A stretch of DNA of 44,719 nt from a virus, in the IMG/VR virus record IMGVR_UViG_3300009419_000029, positions 1-44,719 of that record, one strand, 5' to 3'. The position numbers were made by a program, and so were the translations under genes. A model generated the notes under the pieces. That model was not told the DNA's origin. It saw only the letters and a list, made by a program, of their open reading frames with translations, and ran no database searches. Below are positions 550 to 34,589 of the stretch, one piece after another. Position 1 is the first letter of the stretch. Every line of letters starts with the position of its first letter.

Positions 550-1094
550 GGGAGTATTGGATAAATCTTTCCAGAGAGTGGGGAAAGTCATATATTGTCA
601 GCCTGCTCCCCCCACGCCTGCGACGCCTGCGAAAAAGTTTCGGGGCTCAGGAGGCTGGACACAAACCGATAGGCATGCCTACCCCCCCCTACCCCCAGAG
701 GTACCCCCTCCTCATGAACCGTTAGGCACACCTAATGAGGCATACCCCATAGGGCATACCCCCCCCTACGGAATACCCCTCTGGGTATCCACTCTGGGTA
801 CGCACTCTGGGTATGGCACACAGACATGCCCTTGACATACCCCTCGTGACATACCCTCTGAACACCCCTTGAGACCACACACGACCATGCCTCATGAACA
901 CACCCCATCAGACCATGTCTCATGTCGTCATGAACACCCTCATCAAGCACTCCGTATAGCACCGTCATAGTGCATGCAAAGTGCATGTACATACATGATG
1001 ATGCCCTTTACCTACTCTGGGTGTGGGTGTGGGTGTGGGGATGAAATCATCAGTCTCTCCACACCGCCACTGTGTCGTGTTCTACAATGATTCA
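550..1094. repeat. Repetitive GC-skewed intergenic region
   Basis: No convincing gene. The strip is built from short imperfect direct repeats (CATACCCC, CTCTGGGTA, CATGAACACCC) and ends in a GGTGTG microsatellite just before 1041. It also holds the palindrome TAGGCATGCCTA (670-681) and a relative, TTAGGCACACCTAA (722-735). It precedes the giant gene, so a regulatory or recombination role is possible. The repeat character is seen directly; the function is unknown. Confidence 0.5.
670..735. promoter_or_regulatory. Two TAGGC-GCCTA palindromes
   Basis: A perfect 12-bp palindrome TAGGCATGCCTA at 670-681 and the related TTAGGCACACCTAA at 722-735. A third member, TTAGGCGTGCCTAA, lies at 26861-26874. 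Their shape suits a dimeric repressor operator, but the cognate protein is not identified. Confidence 0.3.
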
Positions 1095-4000
1095 ATGCCC
1101 TTCTCTTATGACATCAACCCTGAAGAATCAGCGCGCGCAAAGCGTCGCATGAAGTCGCAACCATCAGGTGATGTAGAGGTCAAAGCACTCGGCTCTAACC
1201 TCGGTCAGATAGCACGAGGACGAGCAGTGTATGACCCCAATGCATTGGATGGTGACGGCGATGGCATAGTGCAGGACAGCACACCCTTTGAGAGACCAGC
1301 CGCATTGTCCAACATTGCCGCATTGTCTAGGGGATTCGCAAGCGCCACGGGTAGATGGGGCGACTCCTTTGAGAACTGGACAGTTGGTAAGACCAACGAG
1401 GAGATAGCAGAGGTAGCAGTACCTGACAACCCAACAGACCTCATCGCATATGTGACTGCACACGTAGGTGTACATGGGTTACCCACAGGCTTTGACAACA
1501 TCACTGACCTACTGCATGCAATGGAACTAACCGATGCACGCTTTGACCCTGAGGAAGTCGCTAAGACACGCGCCATGTTGGTGCGCATGCTTGAGCAGAA
1601 CCCTGAGATGAGAGAGTTCATTGACCGCTTTGGTATCCCTGCCACTGTAGTAAAAGCATTAGAGGGAGGCGTAGGTGCTACTGCATACAAGCATGTACTG
1701 ATATCCCTGTCACTCAACGAAGTCAACCTAGATGGCAAACTCAAGCCAAAGTGGCGTACAACATTTGGTGCAGTGAAAGACTCACTCATCAAGAAGTTTG
1801 GTGACGATGTCATGCAAGCCATCACCCCTGAAGGCGTAGACACTCTCCCAGATACCTACCTGCAGGAGGACTCAAAAGAAGCCCTTGCTAACACATTCAT
1901 ACATGAATATGGTCATTACCTCAACTATCAGGCTCTCCTCAATCACCCCAACCCTGACTTCCGCAAAGAGATGTTCTTCATGTACAACGCCTCGTGGAGT
2001 CAACTAGAGAACAACATGGAGGCACAGGACGGCATCCGTTCGTCACTGCGCAAACTCGCCATGTTGATGGCTAACCCAAGAGAGAGACAGTACGGACCTT
2101 GGGACCCACAGAAGCGCACTGGTGTACGCAGAGCAGACCCAATGTCTGACATCATGCCTCCATCTGCATACGCAGCCACTAAGCCAACAGAGTTGATGGC
2201 AGAACTGTTTGTTCAGTATGTAAAGACAGCAGACAAGAAGTCACTAAACCCTGAAACACGCATCTTGATGGAGACCCTCACGGGTAGAAAAACTCCTGCT
2301 AAAGGATTCTTCTCTGCATCACGAACACTCCCTGGTGCTAGAGGTTTTGACGATATGTCAATAGAGGAAATCGTTGACTCTGTTGTACCCTCCACACCAG
2401 AGCAAGCACGCAAAGAACTTGAGTCATGGTCACAGTGGATGTTTGACTCAGCAGGTCCTGGCTACTTTGATGTTGACACAGAGGGCATGACCGCAGCAGA
2501 AAAGGTCAACCTTGAGATGAAGCGCATGAAGTTTCATATCGAGAAGAAGATGGAAGGCAGTTGGAACAGAGTCCTAAGAAAAGCCCGTCGTTCTAAGGAA
2601 GATGTCAAACCAGAGGATGTATTTGACTTCTCTCAAGAATCCCTCATGGGTTTACGGGATATGGTTTCAGAAGCATTAGCAAATAGCCCTGAATTCCTTC
2701 AGCATGTAAAAGACTTTGGCATGCCACCACTCTTCGTGCTCAAGGGTGACGACATCAAACTTGGTGGGATATTTAACGGCAGCACTGGCGCAATGTTCAT
2801 CGCAATGAATAAGTTGTCCCTAGACCCAACCCCTCTAGAGAACCCTGACGATGCACTCGCAGGCAGAGGTAAGAAACTTGCTGGCACAGAGTGGTTCTTA
2901 GAGTCAAACGGAAACTGGAAAACACGAAGCATCCTGTATCACGAATACGGTCACTTCATTAACTACCTTGCTGCTTCTATCCACCCTGATAGAGAAACTC
3001 GTTACCTTGCGTCATGGTATTGGCGTATGGACTGGAACGAAGGCTACGGGTGGCGTGCAAAGAGGAAGTGGCAGAAGTTCCGCAAGGAAAACCCTGGATT
3101 TAAATACGATGCTGCGGATAGACGCTGGCAGCAGATTGAAGAAATCACGGATGCACTCAACAGAGGTGAAGCACTTGACTGGGAGAACGGTCCTCCTCAT
3201 GTGATGAGCCAGTACGGTCAGATGACCCCAGCAGAAACATTTGCAGAAGGATACGGCGCATGGATGAGCGGAGAGCCTGAGCAGATTGCTCGCATTAGCC
3301 CTGCGCTCATGAACGACCTAAAGATGCATGTTGCCAATCCAAGCCGTGAAGAAACCACCGTAGAAGTGGATATGACACAGGCAATGCAGAGACCTACGGG
3401 TTTCGCATCACTTAGCATCAAGAGAGACGAATACGGTACGCGCGACCTAGCAGCAGCACTTGATGGCAGTAGCCCATCACCACTTGACGGGTCCAACTGG
3501 CTTAAGGATGCAACGCCTAGAGAGATAGCACAAGCGATTGTCCCACGCACAAGAGAAGATGCCGTGAACTTGATGCTCATGAATCTCCTTGTTGGCAACA
3601 GAAACCCAGACGCAATGACTATGGCCGCTATGCGCTCAATCCTCGACAAGATGCTTGATACGGACATCTTTGACTTCTCGCCTGAGGGTGTGTCTCAAAT
3701 GGAGAAGTGGATTGAGAAAGCACTAGAAGAGTCTCCTCAATTCCTGTGGCAGGTGCGCAGATTCGGTTCCCTGCCTATGATTCCCACGGACAGAAAAGCA
3801 GTCGCTAAGTACAGGAACGCTTTGGAGAATGATACGCCAATCCCCATCCTTTCCATGAATGCCGCAAGAACTGAAACAATGACATATCCGTTCACGGGAA
3901 CAAACTTGTCAGCAGAGCAAGAAGCCATGAAGGTGCTGTTTGATTGTTCAGTTGCCAGTCCTGGAACTATGGGTTACTGCGTAGGAAGCCTATTCATGGT

Positions 4001-7000
4001 CATGAACATGCATCACCGTGAATGGCGTGGAGTTTGGGACCCCAAGAGGTCTAAGCCACCAGCGTTCGGGAGAACACGCCGTGTGAATATTGGTGTAGGA
4101 AAAGACAAATACGACATACGCCCGTGGCCTGAAAAAGACAAATACGGAAGGACTCTCATCTCCAACTTCGGCACAAGCCTTGAGGGAACAATCATTCACG
4201 AATGGGGTCATGGGTGGTTCTCTGGTCTCTTTGGTCCAAAGCAAGGTCTCGGTATTGTTCCAGAAATCACCGCTGAAGTTGCTCGCAAGGGTGGTGTCTT
4301 GGACCCCAATGCCCGTGTTACAAAGCAAGACCTCTATTCTCTTGGTGGTAGTAGATACAATAGATACGCATACTTCTACCCAGACCTTTCACTGCCCGAA
4401 GCAGAAGCACGTGTTGAGTTTGCAAAAGAGTTTATGTCTCCTGGCTCAATGACAATTATCCCAGTACCTGAATCGCCTCGTGATATTGGTCTTCTAGTTC
4501 ACTTTATGCAAAGAGCGGTAACTAAGGCTCAGTCTATTTATGGTCCAGGCTCACCAGAAGTTATGGAAATAACCCAGAGAATGAATGACTACGGTCAGGA
4601 ACTCGGAGATAGAGGACTTAGAAGACTTCTTGCTTTTACAAACAAGGTGAACATGCCAATGGAAAGGTTGATGTACCAAATTGGCATTGACCCTAATGAC
4701 CCAGACCAAGTACAGAGCATGGCAATGTTCTACGGGTACGAGCCAGGAATCAACCAAGACATTTGGCAGGGTCTTGCGCAGGACTTCCCAGACATCTTCG
4801 GTGACCCAGCACTTCCTTTTGCAACACTCGCTGGTCAGTATGCACAGAAGAACCCACAAGAGACATGGGCAGAACTCACCATTCAGATGGCTCAGCCAGA
4901 TGCTGACTACAGAGATGAATACATCACTCCAGAGTTGAAAGCAGCACTACTGTATGTCTTTGGCGAACACGATGACCCGTTTGATACAAACATCACCGAT
5001 ATTCCCTGGGAAACACGTGGTGGCTTTGCATCAAGAACACAAAAGGTTGAGCATGCTCGTGCCACTGTACTGAAGCGCTCCTCCAACACTCTTGGCAATG
5101 TTGTTTCTTCACGCTCAACCATTGACGACAGAGCCTCACGGGTAGTCAAATCGACGAGAGACGAGCGTGGTCATACCCGCTTTGAGATTGGTGACTACAC
5201 CTTTACAATCCCTGGCGACAAGTTCATGCCAGACCTCTCAAGCGCATACACAGAGTGGGCATCAGAATCACACTACGGTATTCAGCAGATGTCACGCATG
5301 ATGATGGGTGTACAGCCAAGCAGAAAGAACCCTCTTTCTATGCCTGGAAACATAGAGATTAACGCTATTCGTTCAGGTAGAGGCGTATCAGAACTTGACG
5401 AGAGAATGCTCTCATCCATCAGGTCAACAGCAGCAAAGACTAATCGCATTCTTGACGAGGTTAGAGATAGCGACTCCTACTCATCAATGCCTCTGTATCA
5501 CGCCCTTAACACAATAGAGCAAGACTCAGACATCTTTACTGCATCTGTTGGTGACACAATCTCTATGCCTCTCTCCTCGTTCTCACCTAACTTCATTAAC
5601 CCAGACATGGTAACTAATAGAGGGGCCGGCGATGGTTCTGCTGTAATCAAACTCTCTATCGGTGCAAAGGTTATGGAGAGCAATCTTCTTGAGAACACAA
5701 GCCGCAATGGTGAGTGGAGAGACGTGCCTATTGAGAGCATCACGGGTGGCAAGTTCAGAGTTATCTCCAAGGGTGAACGAGACGGTATCCCAGTAATAGA
5801 GATTGAGCACACTGATGTGTTTGACACAACATCTGGTGAGTGGATGAATGTTGACCCTAACGATGCCATGTCTTCTGTTCGCTACGAAGTGCTTACCGAT
5901 AGGGGCATGAAAGAACTAGAGAAACTCAACAGACGTCGAATCGTTCTCAAAGACGGTGACCCAGAGTACGGGACCATCACTGAGCAGATGGATACAGTTG
6001 CAAACGGCGTTGTTCGTAGCATGTTCGGTGATAATACAGACCCAATACTCCCAATTCTTAAGATGTCCAGTGAAGACAGAATTAAGTTTGAAGAGCAGAT
6101 GGAAACACTCGCAAAAATCCCTGTTTCATCAATGGATAAGCGTGGATTGCCTGGATTTGCTTCTGTTACCGACGCCAACACAGTGTTTGGTCGCAGAATA
6201 ACTCCAGAGCGTCGTGTCAATACAGCCGCAGTGCGCATGCTTCAAGAGAATCGTGAATACATCGCAGACAGAATGCTTTCTGGCACAAATCGTGAAGTTC
6301 TTGACGATGTATGGGTAGATAAGACGCTTGAGAAACTCAATAACGGCGAGATAACCCATGCTGATGGAATGAACATCATGAATGTAATCATGGATGTAAT
6401 CAGTGACAGGATAAAGAAAGACCCTTCGGTACGTGATGCCATTGACGGCGATATCTACAACTATCAAAAACTAGGCAAGAGATTGCGTAGAGCGATGACC
6501 GCAGAGGTGACAGCAGAAGAAATCAATAGTCCTCGTAAAGCGGCTGGATTTGCTTCTAATACATCTAATACAGATAAAAGAATTACCGAACGATTTAACC
6601 CAACAGTTATCTCAACTCAGGCGAGCGATGCCGAATGGGGTCAGTTTGAAACATCTAGAGAAATTGTTCAGGCTGTTGTCTACGACATCAACGGTGAGAA
6701 AGTTGCTTTTGGTATTGAGGAGAGGCACGGTCTTGACACTACGGGTATCAAAGTAATTGAACTAAACCCATACGAAATAACGGGACTAGAGCGTGGGACA
6801 CCAGAGGGCGAAGAGATGGCTCTTAACTGGGTGTACGCAGACTCTTATCTTCTTGAAACTGGCGACTATTCCAACCACAACGGCACAGAGATAAGTGCGC
6901 TTCTTTATGCAGCAACCAAGGGCGACAAAGAAGCAGAAAAACAGTTTAAAGAGTACGCAGAAAAAGGTCGTGCCATAGTAAAACAAAAGTATCAAGAAGC

Positions 7001-10000
7001 ACTTGACGAAGAAAGAAAACTTCTTGATATCAGACTTAGTGACGGAGGCGTTCAGCAGGCTATTAGAACACTGCAAACACGGCTTGCTGCTCTAAGGCGT
7101 AAAAAGGCAGATGGTTATTACGGCGCTGAACTCACTGAAGAAGACATTGCTAACGCTAAATGGGGACCAAAAGACCTTGTTCTTGTGCGTTGGAGCCAGT
7201 TTCCTCCAGAGTATGACGATGAGGGTAATATCATCGTCCATCCCGCCAGTAAATATCTTCCTGTTGACAGAGAGACAATTCACTTCACATTGAACCATGC
7301 AGTTGAAGAGCATATGTTCTGGAGCGAAGGTGATGAAGGTGGCTATTTAATCACTGTTCCGCTTCAAGATGTCATCGATTCTAACGGTCTTGAGTCTTTA
7401 GACAATCTGTATGGCATTGACACATACTTTACTCCCAAGCAAGGAAAAGGATTAAAACTTCCTAAGGCAAAGGTTAGAAAAGTAGAAAAAGGCGAGGACA
7501 GAAAAGCAATCACTAGAGAAATAATGGAAACCGAATACGATACACTCGGTGTCGCTGGTGGTTCTCACTACACTGACACTGCTGGGTTTGAGGACACAGT
7601 ACGCCTTGTTGCAAGAGACCTTGGTATACCACCAGGAGCGCTTCATGCTTCGCAGCCACATAAACAATTTGAACAATTCAACAACTATGCGAATAGTGAG
7701 GGTGACCGTAACCTTGCAGCAAATATGAATAACGATGCACCTTTTACATTTGCCCCAACCATATCTACAATGGAGAGAAACGCACTTCTTGCAATAGCCG
7801 ATAGACAGCATGCTAAGTGGAGTGGAGTAAACGAAAGTTCTGTCAAGAACCCTGCGGGTAGTTTTGTTTCAGAATCACGTTCAATGCGCAGAATCGTTGA
7901 CATGAACATTCCTGTGCGTAACGAAGAGAGCGCTGAGTTCGTTGCCAGAGAGATGGGTCTTAGCGAGAGAGCGTTCAACTCTCTTAGAGACAGCATGGAC
8001 CGTTCTCTTGAAGCAATCTCGTCAGGAAGACTCTTTAACTACGTAATGGCTACGGGTTCAGAACCACACAAGTCTCGTTTGCTTAACGCAATCAGAGTGG
8101 CTTTGAGCAAGAATGACATACCGATGATGATTGGCGACCCACATCCAGTCATCTTTACCATTGTTCCAGACAAGAGAGACTGGTCGCTGGTTGAGATACC
8201 AAGTCCCGAAACAGTACAGCGTGCTCTCCAGATGATTAGAGACAATCAAAGCACACTAGACAGCATTGCAAACAGGAATCTTGATGTCTCGGGTAGCAGG
8301 AAGTTCTACTCAATCATCGGCGAAAAATTAAACAACCTCAGACTTCAAAGCGGAAGACAGCAACAGCCTAGCCAGCAGATGGAAGACGAATTGGCTGACG
8401 AAATGAAGATACTCGGTAGAGAAAGTTGGGTAAGCCTTTATCTTGGCGGTCTTTTTAGCAACGATGATTGGGCTCCAGCGGCTACTGCTCCCGATGAAGA
8501 AATACACGATGCTATTGGCCACATAGGTATTGGTCGTGGCTTTGATAGACATGGCGAGTTTGCTAATGCGCTTGCCGTTCTATCGCTTCTTAAAGACCCA
8601 GATGTTCAAAAGCAGTTAACAAAGCGAGAAATTGATTCAGCGGCTAGAAGAGTTATCGGTGATTACCTACTACCTACGCTTGTAACCAATGGTGATGGCG
8701 ATGCAGTTGAAATACTTAAGTTGGGTAGGTCATTCATGGGTGACCCTTTTGCACTGCTTGACATCTTTGAGAGCGAGATTGATAAGACTCCAGCCCTCAA
8801 CAACGACGGCTCACCGATAAAGCCCCGTTCTACTGGGTTCGCATCAAGTAGCAGGCTCTCCCTTGAGGGTGTGAAGCCAGAAGTTCGTGACAGGATAGTT
8901 CTTGCAGATACTGCTCACTTGTCTCGCAACAAAACGGCTCCCCGTATTCCTGGAAAGACCCCTGAAGAGATAACCACATCAATCAGGAGATTCGTTGGTG
9001 GTTTTGCATCTCGCACTACCCCAACAAACCCAGCGGGTAAGAGCATAGAAGAAGTAGCAAAAGATATTGAACTCACCCCTGATGAAGTAAAAATCCTTGA
9101 AAAGGTTCTTCCAGATATCTCCTCACTAAGAAAGATGGAAGTAAACCCATCTCTCAAGGACAAGAAAGAAGACCTTATTAACTCTGTCCGTGTTGCGGTT
9201 GTGGACGGCATCCCATTTGTTTATGCCTCGCCAAACCCGATGCTTTCTGAGCAGATACCAGACAAACGGGACTGGTCGGCTGTTGTCCGTCCCAAGGCAG
9301 AAACAGCAGAAAAAGTAAGGTCTCTTGTTGAGGAGATGGTTAAAACAACTCTTGATGGCAAGACTGCCGAAGCCTTCTATGACATCCTGTACTCAGGTCA
9401 AGATAGCCCAGAGCGTAAAAAACTAGTAAAAAGAATGCAAGATGCTCAACTGCTTCGCTTTACATTCGCTGACTGGTCAAATAACTTGCTGAAAGACATT
9501 GCATCAAAGAATCCATTTGATAGCGGTTCAAACGAGTACATCACTGGCATGGGTTCCGAGTATGGTGAACCAGTCTTCCTTCAAATGTGGGCACAAGGTC
9601 TTCAGGATTTGCGTTCTCCAGCGTTAAGCATTTTTTCTCCAGAGAATGAAACCGATGGTATGCACGACATGTGGGGACATGTTGGAATAGGCAGAGGCTT
9701 TGACCGTCACGGAGAGTGGGCAAACATGTTTGCGATGTTCTCCCTCATGGACAGATGGGCTGACGAGAACAACATCTCTAAAGATGAATTAACACTCACC
9801 AAAGCATCTTGGTTTAACTGGCTTGAATACCGCAAGATAGGTGGAGAGTTCACTCCTAGAAGAAGTGAAATCAACAAGAGAGACAATGCAGATGCTCACG
9901 AGATGACCTACACCAACGCTATTTTGGGTGCTGACATAGAGCAACTAGAAAAATTAATAGCGCTTATTGATGACGGCAATACTCACGATACTGGTAAAGC

Positions 10001-11309
10001 CAAGGGTTTTGCAAGTGCAAGTAGTTCTCAAAAGGCAGAAATTGCGAAGAACGACATCGTCAGACAGACGATGATGCGCAACAACTCAACAGGGTTTGCT
10101 TCAAAGGCAGACTCATGGAGAAACAACACTCACGGCGTAGAAGTCACAATCAACGCCCCAGAATCTGATGTGTTCACAGCAGACGAAAACGGTCGCACTA
10201 TTCAGGTCTTTGTACCAGAGGGTGTTGAAGTAATAAACCCAAGAACAAAAGAAAAAATGATTCTTGACTCGCTAGAGGCTTCAAGAGAGTTCGTTGCCTA
10301 CGGTGGCAATCTGTCAGAAGTCCCGGATGCACATGTCGTTGATGCAATTCTTAAAAATACAGAAGATGTACCAGGAGAACGTGCTACAGGGTGGAGATTT
10401 TCAAAACCAGACGGAAGATTTGAATGGATAGGTGGAGGCGGTGGCGCTACTGGAATAATGCGCCTTAAGGACAAGAAAACAAATGCAATATTCGGAATAA
10501 AGTTTGAGGCTTCATTTAGAGCACCAGAAGGAGGTGACCCATATGCGGAATGGACACAACCATATCCAATCGCAGATAGAGACCTTGCTGATGCTCCAGA
10601 TGGGATAGTCAATGAGGTTGTTGCACAAGCAATTCTCACAGCGCTTGGCTTTGAACCCGGGGCAACAAGAATAGCAAGAAGAAGCCCACTAGGCGCTGGC
10701 AAAAAAAATGGTGGAGCAGTCATGATAATAGATTTTGCTCAAAACAGATACGGTAATGTACGTGGTGCGGAAGACTATGCACCTATGAAGGTAAGAAAAG
10801 AATCAGCAATTAGAACTCTTCTTCTTGACGCCATATTGTCAAACACCGACAGAAACAAAAATAACTTTTTGACATCCATACAAAGTGATGGAACAAGAGT
10901 TATCATCCCTATAGACCACGGGCAAATTATGCGTGGAAGAGTAAATAGGTTTGACTTAAAGGGAGGCATATCTTCACAGTTGACAAACAACGATGTTGAA
11001 TATGAAAAAATTCTTGACGATATGACAAGAGCAGAGTTGATAGCAATGATTCCTGGTATTTTGGCTGATTACAGAGGCGACATAGAACAAAAGAAGGCAG
11101 ATATTACAAAAGCAATGAACGAAGCAATTGAAAAACTAGCCTCTGTCCATCAAGATGGTGATTGGGTTGATTTAGATATGATTAATGATATGGCTGCTGA
11201 TTATCAAGAAAGACTTAAAGGTGTATTTTCAAGACTCGACGAAGTTGCAGCAATGTCAGATGAGGATTTTTTAGAATTGTTTAAATACTTAAGATACGGG
11301 TACAAGTAA
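1095..11309 (+). CDS. Giant modular polyprotein with zincin, ART-like and kinase-like modules
   Basis: About 3,404 residues. A DxDxDG calcium-binding-like motif (residues 52-61) is followed by three modules each carrying a zinc-protease signature: HEYGH at 270, HEYGH at 616 and HEWGH at 1035. Around 1467-1550 (PLYHAL, PLSSFSPN) the pattern resembles ADP-ribosyltransferase toxins. A TIHFTLNH motif lies near 2061. HDxxGH followed by IGRGFDRHGE occurs twice (2471 and 2857). The C-terminus (3113-3275) has a glycine-rich loop, NTDRNKNN and IDHG, like HipA or PI-kinase catalytic loops. Ten G-F-[AF]-S linkers (80, 404, 769, 1310, 1687, 1818, 2581, 2636, 2971, 3000) separate the modules. The start was set at MPFSYD because TACAAT sits six bases upstream; 1041 and 1023 are alternatives. 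It is probably a virion-associated or injected effector protein; function is inferred. Confidence 0.85.
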   Translation: MPFSYDINPEESARAKRRMKSQPSGDVEVKALGSNLGQIARGRAVYDPNALDGDGDGIVQDSTPFERPAALSNIAALSRGFASATGRWGDSFENWTVGKTNEEIAEVAVPDNPTDLIAYVTAHVGVHGLPTGFDNITDLLHAMELTDARFDPEEVAKTRAMLVRMLEQNPEMREFIDRFGIPATVVKALEGGVGATAYKHVLISLSLNEVNLDGKLKPKWRTTFGAVKDSLIKKFGDDVMQAITPEGVDTLPDTYLQEDSKEALANTFIHEYGHYLNYQALLNHPNPDFRKEMFFMYNASWSQLENNMEAQDGIRSSLRKLAMLMANPRERQYGPWDPQKRTGVRRADPMSDIMPPSAYAATKPTELMAELFVQYVKTADKKSLNPETRILMETLTGRKTPAKGFFSASRTLPGARGFDDMSIEEIVDSVVPSTPEQARKELESWSQWMFDSAGPGYFDVDTEGMTAAEKVNLEMKRMKFHIEKKMEGSWNRVLRKARRSKEDVKPEDVFDFSQESLMGLRDMVSEALANSPEFLQHVKDFGMPPLFVLKGDDIKLGGIFNGSTGAMFIAMNKLSLDPTPLENPDDALAGRGKKLAGTEWFLESNGNWKTRSILYHEYGHFINYLAASIHPDRETRYLASWYWRMDWNEGYGWRAKRKWQKFRKENPGFKYDAADRRWQQIEEITDALNRGEALDWENGPPHVMSQYGQMTPAETFAEGYGAWMSGEPEQIARISPALMNDLKMHVANPSREETTVEVDMTQAMQRPTGFASLSIKRDEYGTRDLAAALDGSSPSPLDGSNWLKDATPREIAQAIVPRTREDAVNLMLMNLLVGNRNPDAMTMAAMRSILDKMLDTDIFDFSPEGVSQMEKWIEKALEESPQFLWQVRRFGSLPMIPTDRKAVAKYRNALENDTPIPILSMNAARTETMTYPFTGTNLSAEQEAMKVLFDCSVASPGTMGYCVGSLFMVMNMHHREWRGVWDPKRSKPPAFGRTRRVNIGVGKDKYDIRPWPEKDKYGRTLISNFGTSLEGTIIHEWGHGWFSGLFGPKQGLGIVPEITAEVARKGGVLDPNARVTKQDLYSLGGSRYNRYAYFYPDLSLPEAEARVEFAKEFMSPGSMTIIPVPESPRDIGLLVHFMQRAVTKAQSIYGPGSPEVMEITQRMNDYGQELGDRGLRRLLAFTNKVNMPMERLMYQIGIDPNDPDQVQSMAMFYGYEPGINQDIWQGLAQDFPDIFGDPALPFATLAGQYAQKNPQETWAELTIQMAQPDADYRDEYITPELKAALLYVFGEHDDPFDTNITDIPWETRGGFASRTQKVEHARATVLKRSSNTLGNVVSSRSTIDDRASRVVKSTRDERGHTRFEIGDYTFTIPGDKFMPDLSSAYTEWASESHYGIQQMSRMMMGVQPSRKNPLSMPGNIEINAIRSGRGVSELDERMLSSIRSTAAKTNRILDEVRDSDSYSSMPLYHALNTIEQDSDIFTASVGDTISMPLSSFSPNFINPDMVTNRGAGDGSAVIKLSIGAKVMESNLLENTSRNGEWRDVPIESITGGKFRVISKGERDGIPVIEIEHTDVFDTTSGEWMNVDPNDAMSSVRYEVLTDRGMKELEKLNRRRIVLKDGDPEYGTITEQMDTVANGVVRSMFGDNTDPILPILKMSSEDRIKFEEQMETLAKIPVSSMDKRGLPGFASVTDANTVFGRRITPERRVNTAAVRMLQENREYIADRMLSGTNREVLDDVWVDKTLEKLNNGEITHADGMNIMNVIMDVISDRIKKDPSVRDAIDGDIYNYQKLGKRLRRAMTAEVTAEEINSPRKAAGFASNTSNTDKRITERFNPTVISTQASDAEWGQFETSREIVQAVVYDINGEKVAFGIEERHGLDTTGIKVIELNPYEITGLERGTPEGEEMALNWVYADSYLLETGDYSNHNGTEISALLYAATKGDKEAEKQFKEYAEKGRAIVKQKYQEALDEERKLLDIRLSDGGVQQAIRTLQTRLAALRRKKADGYYGAELTEEDIANAKWGPKDLVLVRWSQFPPEYDDEGNIIVHPASKYLPVDRETIHFTLNHAVEEHMFWSEGDEGGYLITVPLQDVIDSNGLESLDNLYGIDTYFTPKQGKGLKLPKAKVRKVEKGEDRKAITREIMETEYDTLGVAGGSHYTDTAGFEDTVRLVARDLGIPPGALHASQPHKQFEQFNNYANSEGDRNLAANMNNDAPFTFAPTISTMERNALLAIADRQHAKWSGVNESSVKNPAGSFVSESRSMRRIVDMNIPVRNEESAEFVAREMGLSERAFNSLRDSMDRSLEAISSGRLFNYVMATGSEPHKSRLLNAIRVALSKNDIPMMIGDPHPVIFTIVPDKRDWSLVEIPSPETVQRALQMIRDNQSTLDSIANRNLDVSGSRKFYSIIGEKLNNLRLQSGRQQQPSQQMEDELADEMKILGRESWVSLYLGGLFSNDDWAPAATAPDEEIHDAIGHIGIGRGFDRHGEFANALAVLSLLKDPDVQKQLTKREIDSAARRVIGDYLLPTLVTNGDGDAVEILKLGRSFMGDPFALLDIFESEIDKTPALNNDGSPIKPRSTGFASSSRLSLEGVKPEVRDRIVLADTAHLSRNKTAPRIPGKTPEEITTSIRRFVGGFASRTTPTNPAGKSIEEVAKDIELTPDEVKILEKVLPDISSLRKMEVNPSLKDKKEDLINSVRVAVVDGIPFVYASPNPMLSEQIPDKRDWSAVVRPKAETAEKVRSLVEEMVKTTLDGKTAEAFYDILYSGQDSPERKKLVKRMQDAQLLRFTFADWSNNLLKDIASKNPFDSGSNEYITGMGSEYGEPVFLQMWAQGLQDLRSPALSIFSPENETDGMHDMWGHVGIGRGFDRHGEWANMFAMFSLMDRWADENNISKDELTLTKASWFNWLEYRKIGGEFTPRRSEINKRDNADAHEMTYTNAILGADIEQLEKLIALIDDGNTHDTGKAKGFASASSSQKAEIAKNDIVRQTMMRNNSTGFASKADSWRNNTHGVEVTINAPESDVFTADENGRTIQVFVPEGVEVINPRTKEKMILDSLEASREFVAYGGNLSEVPDAHVVDAILKNTEDVPGERATGWRFSKPDGRFEWIGGGGGATGIMRLKDKKTNAIFGIKFEASFRAPEGGDPYAEWTQPYPIADRDLADAPDGIVNEVVAQAILTALGFEPGATRIARRSPLGAGKKNGGAVMIIDFAQNRYGNVRGAEDYAPMKVRKESAIRTLLLDAILSNTDRNKNNFLTSIQSDGTRVIIPIDHGQIMRGRVNRFDLKGGISSQLTNNDVEYEKILDDMTRAELIAMIPGILADYRGDIEQKKADITKAMNEAIEKLASVHQDGDWVDLDMINDMAADYQERLKGVFSRLDEVAAMSDEDFLELFKYLRYGYK

Positions 11310-31077: not shown

Positions 31078-31108
31078 ATTATGCCCTGTAAGGCTTGAGA
31101 CAACAACC
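31078..31108 (-). promoter_or_regulatory. 31-bp repeated promoter, copy 21
   Basis: GGTTGT, CTTACAGGG, CATAAT; five bases to the ATG at 31072. Confidence 0.75.
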
Positions 31109-31168
31109 TGCGAGTTGAGAAATAATCTCGTTTTTTTGATAATCGCTACCAGAGGATGTCGGGCAATT

Positions 31169-31199
31169 ATTTTGCCGTGTAAGCACCGGCGTCACAACC
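31169..31199 (-). promoter_or_regulatory. 31-bp repeated promoter, copy 22 (orphan)
   Basis: GGTTGT, CTTACACGG, CAAAAT. No start codon at 5-7 bases; lies 60 bp upstream of copy 21, so either a tandem promoter or a remnant of a lost gene. Confidence 0.6.
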
Positions 31200-33715: not shown

Positions 33716-33915
33716 ACGAACCCGTACCTCATCATCATGTGACCTACTGCCCAGTCGTAACACAGGCTCAACATTCCCCATTCGCATGAGTTCTCTTCGG
33801 CCCCGACTTTGACAGTCACCGTGTAGCGACCATCGTCTTTTTTGATAATCGTCATAACAGCCTGTTCTTGCAGGTCTTCAATGAACTTTGTTTGTATGTC
33901 AATTACTTCGCTCAT
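33712..33915 (-). CDS. Hypothetical protein
   Basis: 67 residues, MSEVIDIQTKFIEDLQEQAVM..., then a beta hairpin (RYTVTVKVG) and a helix. Middle gene of a three-gene unit with ATGA overlaps on both sides. Confidence 0.68.
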   Translation of the reverse strand: MSEVIDIQTKFIEDLQEQAVMTIIKKDDGRYTVTVKVGAEENSCEWGMLSLCYDWAVGHMMMRYGFV

Positions 33916-34103
33916 TGTGCAACCTCCAGTGCAAGACGGGCGAGTTCTTTGCCTTCTTTCAGTAGTGCTTCCACTACCGCAAGTGCTTTCTCAAACTCGT
34001 CATCGTTGTCTGTGTTGTACCACTCCTCGTTCAGTGAGTCCACTGCTGGAGAAAGGTCTAAAAGGATTTTTGCCATTTTGGCGGTCAGTTCATTTTCTTT
34101 CAT
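33912..34103 (-). CDS. 63-residue helical protein
   Basis: MKENELTAKMAKILLDLSPA..., coiled-coil-like, acidic. First gene of the 34103-33467 unit; leaderless start five bases after promoter copy 27. Function unknown. Confidence 0.68.
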   Translation of the reverse strand: MKENELTAKMAKILLDLSPAVDSLNEEWYNTDNDDEFEKALAVVEALLKEGKELARLALEVAQ

Positions 34104-34108
34104 AATTC

Positions 34109-34139
34109 ATTATGCCGTGTAAGCCACAAGGACACAACC
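34109..34139 (-). promoter_or_regulatory. 31-bp repeated promoter, copy 27
   Basis: GGTTGT, CTTACACGG, CATAAT; five bases to the ATG at 34103. Its -35 end is also the 3' arm of the ncRNA terminal helix. Confidence 0.72.
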
Positions 34140-34374
34140 TCTTGCGAAACACATAACTGAGATAGCAAGTCTCACCACCCTTTCCCGTCGGACGGCGTGC
34201 AGACGCTGTGAAGAGGACGGCTGAATGGAAGAGGTCGGATACACCAGAGGGAGTAGGGAGTCTAGAACAAACGACTATCGTGGGTAGAGCCTTATCGCCA
34301 ACAGAGCCTTATCTGTCAGGGTAAGCACAACCGAGGTGGTTGCTATGTATTTCGCAAGAGGTTGCCCTCTCACA
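34134..34374 (-). ncRNA. Candidate structured ncRNA with 24-bp terminal helix
   Basis: A 24-base segment (34342-34365) pairs on the minus-strand RNA with 34134-34157, including three G-U wobbles; on the plus-strand RNA those wobbles would be mismatches, so the minus strand is favoured. Promoter copy 28 sits just upstream on the same strand. Inner helices: TGAGA/TCTCA, ACAGA/TCTGT, CAACC/GGTTG, CCGT/ACGG, GCGT/ACGC, plus a direct repeat GATAAGGCTCT. Only a 32-codon GTG ORF is present. No match to 6S, tmRNA, RNase P or group I introns was recognised. Confidence 0.5.
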
Positions 34375-34379
34375 CTTCA

Positions 34380-34410
34380 AGTATGCCCTGTAAGGGACAG
34401 GGACACAACT
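34380..34410 (-). promoter_or_regulatory. 31-bp repeated promoter, copy 28
   Basis: AGTTGT, CTTACAGGG, CATACT; a GTG but no ATG follows after six bases; drives the candidate ncRNA. Confidence 0.7.
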
Positions 34411-34560
34411 TGGTGAAAAAGATTTACCGTAGGTTTTTGTATGCAACTAAGTAGCACCGCACAGACAGCAGGGTGCAGAGGACTTGCAGCCCCGTCGGCA
34501 ACGGCAGCAAAACTGGGTAGGAAAGTGTCAATCCCAGCAAAATGTGCTTGCCTGCCGTCT

Positions 34561-34589
34561 TGTCTGAAACCATCACGGTGACGGAAAGC
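34561..34589 (+). repeat. GGTGGCGGAAAG repeat, copy 7
   Basis: TGTCTGAAACCATCACGGTG then ACGGAAAG (one change); overlaps the stop of the 35148 gene, encoding its GFPSP end. Confidence 0.58.

Follow-up and report, generated by a model that had tools for sequence, protein, structure and literature searches.

A conserved class of ~240-nt structured RNA in phages, with palindromic apical loops suggestive of homodimers

The minus strand of a phage genome known from environmental sequence records carries, at positions 34134-34375, the predicted gene for a structured RNA of about 240 nucleotides that belongs to a conserved and apparently unreported class. The window, that is, the whole stretch of DNA analysed, comprises 44,719 nucleotides (IMG/VR record IMGVR_UViG_3300009419_000029). 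The 5' end of the RNA is predicted at about 34373-34375 and its 3' end at about 34134; this block is common to three close relatives (L004, L011 and L026), while the flanks differ. That a conserved class of structured RNA exists here is, in our judgement, practically beyond doubt. The fuller interpretation, a trans-acting phage-encoded RNA with its own promoter that probably forms a homodimer and serves as a scaffold or decoy for a host factor, we hold to be somewhat better than an even proposition, no transcript, dimer or partner having been observed.

The RNA is closed by a helix of 24 bp without a bulge, P1, whose 5' and 3' arms occupy positions 34342-34365 and 34134-34157 of the minus strand, respectively. 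A preliminary description, made from the letters of the window alone, had proposed this helix with arms 185 bases apart; the helix stands, and the spacing is 184 nucleotides. It had also held that three of the pairs are G-U wobbles valid only on the minus strand, and on the opposite strand these indeed become A-C mismatches. The minimum free energy of the minus strand (241 nt) is -85.9 kcal/mol (z = -3.35), and none of 200 shuffled sequences folds as low. Because the plus strand folds similarly well (z = -3.98), folding energy alone cannot pick the strand; it is the excess of G-U over A-C cells in P1 of nine homologues, 20 to 3, that fixes it as minus. P1 is continued by P2 (ACCACCU at 34334-34340 with GGGUGGU at 34174-34180). 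Two side hairpins lie nearby: P5 (GAGACUUGCUAUCUC, 34159-34173) and the P4 region (34184-34193), a short stem with an invariant CGACGG, which is flipped to GGG-GACG-CCC in one of the families described below (family C). The anatomy is that of a long closing helix followed by P2, the side hairpins and a motif-bearing apical domain. Upstream on the same strand, 179 nucleotides without a clear gene (34394-34572) separate a 191-aa ORF from the promoter of the RNA; considered as a possible second RNA, this intergenic region has no excess structure (z = -0.12).

Close relatives were found by blastn over loci fetched with neighbouring proteins, at 86% (L004), 85% (L011) and 74% (L026) identity, and these form family A with the window copy. 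IMG/VR was probed with the repeat TAAGGCTCT...TAAGGCTCT, then with two motif combinations and then with a fourth probe. Such probes select their own motifs, so that part of the conservation of GATAAGGCTCT comes from the search itself; the helices played no role in the selection. The remaining RNAs fall into family B (L079, L089, L099, L102, L123), family C (L086, L100, L105, L125, L130, L132, L136, L139, L140, L143, L145) and three outliers (L138, L141, L142). A covariance model matches 24 of 50 whole phage records, once or twice in each; 25 of the 26 records without a match had been included only for a shared AAA ATPase, and the remaining one is that of L138. Exact-motif counts give three RNA-like loci in one record, for a range of one to three loci per record. 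Two RNAs lie 2.9 kb apart at L104 and 1.6 kb apart at L145, and L105, L100 and L132 belong to a single record. Pattern matches without the rest of the anatomy (L080-L085, L092, L095, L098, L119 and others) were rejected, as was the sole match in a scan of genome contigs, an archaeal MAG locus (L128) lacking the remaining anatomy. No match was obtained by blastn of five different class members against 50,697 phage genomes, nor by a covariance search of ten isolated actinobacteriophages carrying relatives of window proteins. The hosts are probably Actinomycetota, an inference made because the window proteins, among them the helicase and the DUF932 protein, are nearest to those of Arthrobacter, Gordonia and other actinobacteriophages. 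The window also contains, on the plus strand (1023-11309), a single ORF of 3428 aa with repeated GFAS-type segments, whose product is possibly a giant fused virion-associated protein.

The class is supported by covariation. When nine RNAs of families A and B are aligned without gaps from the anchor CAUAGC, 206 of the 216 P1 cells are standard pairs, and in 21 of the 24 pairs both partners have changed. When arms are swapped from one RNA to another the mean count is 138 (maximum 173), and sliding them leaves 68-100. In the same nine RNAs, 59 of 63 cells are paired in P2 (five of seven pairs two-sided) and 44 of 45 in P5 (four of five). RNAalifold, applied to an unfitted alignment, returns the same helices, 24 of the 47 pairs showing two-sided changes. 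In an alignment of 21 RNAs to the model the proportion of paired cells is 93%; shuffling lowers it to 63.7% and sliding to 49.6% or less. This alignment is fitted to the model and so leans towards the structure. In one of the alignments the window RNA was given slightly incorrect ends (34142-34373), without consequence for the conclusions. A model built solely from five family B sequences (R1), with the window and its close relatives left out, detects the window RNA at 34357-34142 of the minus strand with E = 4e-29, the other family A members at E ~1e-27 to 1e-30 and family C at 1e-16 to 1e-4; across 770 kb it finds nothing else under E = 1. The preliminary description had asked for a covariance search of this kind in related phages, and had named as its refutation homologues in which the arms change without compensation; the opposite is seen. 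Covariation shows P1, P2 and P5 to be real helices, and the two-sided compensatory changes in them support the structured minus-strand RNA first proposed, still with no transcript observed.

The apical domain carries the conserved motifs UAAGGCUCU and CCGUCCUC, with short variable helices between them. A direct repeat already noted at the locus is GATAAGGCTCT, which the window contains in two copies of GAUAAGGCUCU (34303-34313 and 34286-34296, minus strand) and which is the most conserved signature of the class. Its exact copies are essentially confined to class RNAs, which disposes of GATAAGGCTCT as a genome-wide element. The pyrimidine motif is likewise present twice on the minus strand, as AUCCGACCUCUUCC (34227-34240) and GCCGUCCUCUUCAC (34208-34221). 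Between P2/P3 and the tip, UAAGGCUCU is found in 21 of 21 RNAs (by selection) and CCGUCCU in 16 of them. If the new class is defined by covarying P1, P2 and P5 together with the UAAGGCUCU and CCGUCCUC motifs, the window copy qualifies. The invariant CGACGG can pair with CCGUC, a pairing for which there is no variation to provide a test, and in several family C members two motifs seem, by eye, to lie opposite one another on the two sides of a symmetric internal loop. Prediction gives the conserved motifs no clear excess of unpaired bases over the remaining apical domain (0.48 and 0.47 versus 0.43).

A palindrome of 6 nt is present in the apical region of all 21 RNAs, a feature that chance often produces (a mean of 17.6 of 21 after shuffling). 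Its placement is far less easily obtained. In 12 of 15 distinct RNAs a hexamer palindrome sits in a loop of 6-9 nt closed by at least 4 bp; shuffled sets give a mean of 2.7 and a maximum of 9, and none of 1000 reaches 12. The pattern tested had first been spotted on visual inspection of these very sequences, the shuffle check coming afterwards. Eight different loop palindromes occur (CCCGGG, CCGCGG, ACUAGU, CCUAGG, GCUAGC, CCAUGG, CGUACG and UCCGGA), plus UCUAGA in L132. They thus vary in sequence yet remain self-complementary in most homologues. Clear loops of one base plus the palindrome are seen in L026, L123, L142 and L130. In OLE and GOLLD, switching from palindrome to palindrome has been used as support for intermolecular contacts (PMC12286853). 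For the class as a whole, the varying self-complementary loops strongly suggest a kissing-loop homodimer, although no dimer has been observed; that the class dimerises through its loops we consider reasonably likely. The window copy carries UCUAGA at 34261-34266 (minus strand); there and in the close relatives the palindrome lies outside any well-supported hairpin, and the case for a dimer of the window RNA therefore rests on its relatives. The palindromes differ within one record for L099 and L123 and for the two L145 RNAs, and those of the L079 and L089 types are both CCCGGG, so that heterodimers are possible in some phages only.

The family promoter expected directly upstream on the minus strand is in place, with a -35 element GTTGTG at 34404-34409 and a -10 element CATACT at 34380-34385. 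It is one of about 30 copies (GGTTGT ... TTACAGGGCATAATG) found between 20275 and 41089, in nearly all of which the ATG of a small gene stands at the expected transcription start; the mRNAs throughout this region are probably leaderless. At the RNA locus the ATG is missing, as the preliminary description had pointed out, and is replaced by GTG. A 32-aa ORF initiated by this GTG is present, and its frame is not kept, L011 having a one-base gap near the start. Members of family A resemble one another from the predicted start (GTGTGAGAG) as far as the end of the 3' arm of P1, the flanks being unrelated in L011. A second promoter copy devoid of ATG (31182, TTACACGGCAAA; region 31079-31182, minus strand) precedes the copy at 31091 by only 91 nt, and is either a degenerate promoter or the source of another short non-coding transcript. 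At the opposite end of the RNA, the 3' arm of P1 overlaps the -35 element (34133-34138) of the next promoter on the same strand, again as anticipated; with its -10 element at 34109-34114, this promoter drives a 63-aa ORF (33912-34103). Across families A and B (L079, L099, L102, L123 and the window) the 3' arm as a rule touches or runs into the next gene's promoter, L026 being an exception. In family B a -10 box (TATAAT, TAAAAT or TAGAAT) lies just ahead of P1 and another just after it. With no intrinsic terminator in families A and B, the 3' end of the RNA remains uncertain; in most of family C, P1 is followed by a U-rich tract resembling one.

No protein family adjoins all the loci, and there is no conserved neighbour. 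Since, in addition, the 85% identical RNA of L011 is set between different flanks, the RNA behaves as a mobile, trans-acting unit. Ten neighbours, small unknown proteins, gave no match in PADLOC. At the gathering threshold of Rfam 15 (cmscan), the window and 12 homologous loci match no family, GOLLD and ROOL included, and permissive Rfam searches gave chance matches only. The literature searched, outside of which lay most subscription papers and all preprints, mentions neither such a class nor the motif in this setting. It is the absence of a match in Rfam 15 and of a flanking gene common to all loci that makes this look like an unreported class of trans-acting RNA.

Several other interpretations have to be weighed. 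The one that survives best is a regulatory RNA of the Ms1/6S type, whose long hairpin would dock onto the host RNA polymerase and redirect transcription to phage genes. Ms1, from actinobacteria, is a long hairpin of ~300 nt that has a bubble at its centre and a pair of short hairpins close to the ends, and it binds core polymerase (PMC4191392). The likely actinobacterial hosts speak for such a role, and so does the architecture, since the phage RNA, like the long-hairpin RNAs Ms1/MTS2823 and 6S, has a long helix closing its ends and, like Ms1, short side hairpins. However, no Rfam family matches, those of 6S included, and conservation here falls on a large apical domain in which motifs are repeated, and not on a bubble at the centre. 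Moreover, Ms1 and 6S are encoded by bacterial chromosomal genes with conserved synteny, whereas the phage RNA is present in one to three copies and polymerase binding has not been demonstrated. We regard this as a fair competitor, albeit an unlikely one. Slightly less likely again is an antisense regulator, the pyrimidine-rich motifs (CCGUCCUC, CCUCC) pairing with purine-rich ribosome-binding sites to block host translation, from which the apparently leaderless mRNAs of the window phage would escape. Pyrimidine motifs do occur in nearly all members, and the ATG of the window genes does lie at the expected start site of the promoter. Yet the motifs lack strong predicted exposure, exact CCUCC is found in only 10 of 21 RNAs, UAAGGCUCU is no anti-Shine-Dalgarno sequence, and Shine-Dalgarno-like sites precede the ATGs in family B phages.

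The missing terminator in families A and B and the contact of the 3' arm with the next promoter could also be taken to mean that the RNA is a leader or processing element acting in cis on the downstream gene. This is improbable: the downstream genes differ between families, the next gene is usually served by a promoter of its own, and U tracts like those of terminators stand at the end of many family C copies. Phage-encoded structured RNAs are known to act as antitoxins or guides of an adjacent protein, as in type III toxin-antitoxin or AbiF-like systems (AbiF: PMC12373285), but with no conserved neighbour and no PADLOC match among the ten examined, such a role here is very improbable. Finally, the long inverted repeat might function as DNA, as an origin or protein site, an explanation we find scarcely tenable given the predominance of G-U over A-C (20 to 3), the covarying side hairpins, the promoter ahead, and the many loops made of exactly one extra 5' base plus the palindrome, which would keep a DNA hairpin from being a perfect palindrome.

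Among known systems, GOLLD, ROOL and OLE form homo-oligomers with kissing loops, and the palindromic loops of OLE and GOLLD covary (PMC12286853). Like the present RNA they are structured, non-coding and recognised through covariation, and GOLLD and ROOL are phage-encoded as well; they differ in length (~600-800 nt, against ~240) and in sequence and fold. GOLLD and ROOL are often neighbours of tRNA islands, whereas the only tRNA of the window is 16 kb from the RNA. By analogy, the class perhaps forms RNA-RNA oligomers as these do, without being a member of their families. The pRNA of phi29, part of the packaging motor, is a phage RNA whose 5' and 3' ends form a closing helix and which multimerises through loops, likenesses that stop short of any link to a packaging motor in our case; we know of no evidence that its loops are covarying self-palindromes. 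The retroviral DIS, too, is a 6-nt palindrome in a hairpin loop that causes homodimerisation, but it sits in the RNA genome of eukaryotic viruses and not in a non-coding RNA of DNA phages.

The reading that we prefer, of a trans-acting RNA that dimerises, can be put as follows. Transcription would begin from the RNA's own promoter, at or beside the GTG found in place of the customary start codon. A rigid base would be formed by P1, its continuation P2 and the flanking hairpins P4 and P5; beyond P2 the apical domain would present UAAGGCUCU and CCGUCCUC, motifs whose conservation is documented and whose exposure is not. Two copies would most likely kiss via their 6-nt palindromic apical loops, and during infection the resulting homodimer would probably engage a host factor as a multivalent scaffold or decoy. 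This last step is an inference; there is no evidence as to the identity of the partner, and we place a decoy or scaffold role a little below even. More tentative still is the broadest form of the proposal, a widespread new class in which self-selecting kissing loops form homodimers, palindromes diverge between phages and between copies within a phage to give orthogonal dimer codes, and motif arrays capture an essential host factor.

Known classes of phage non-coding RNA are few, and what the best of them, GOLLD and ROOL, do remains open. The RNA described here is small and well defined by covariation, many uncultured phages have one to three copies of it, and it predicts loop-dependent homodimers whose specificity follows the palindrome. 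A dimer of a 240-nt RNA would be far easier to study than giant cages, and the identity of its partner would reveal a host process that phages target by RNA rather than by protein.
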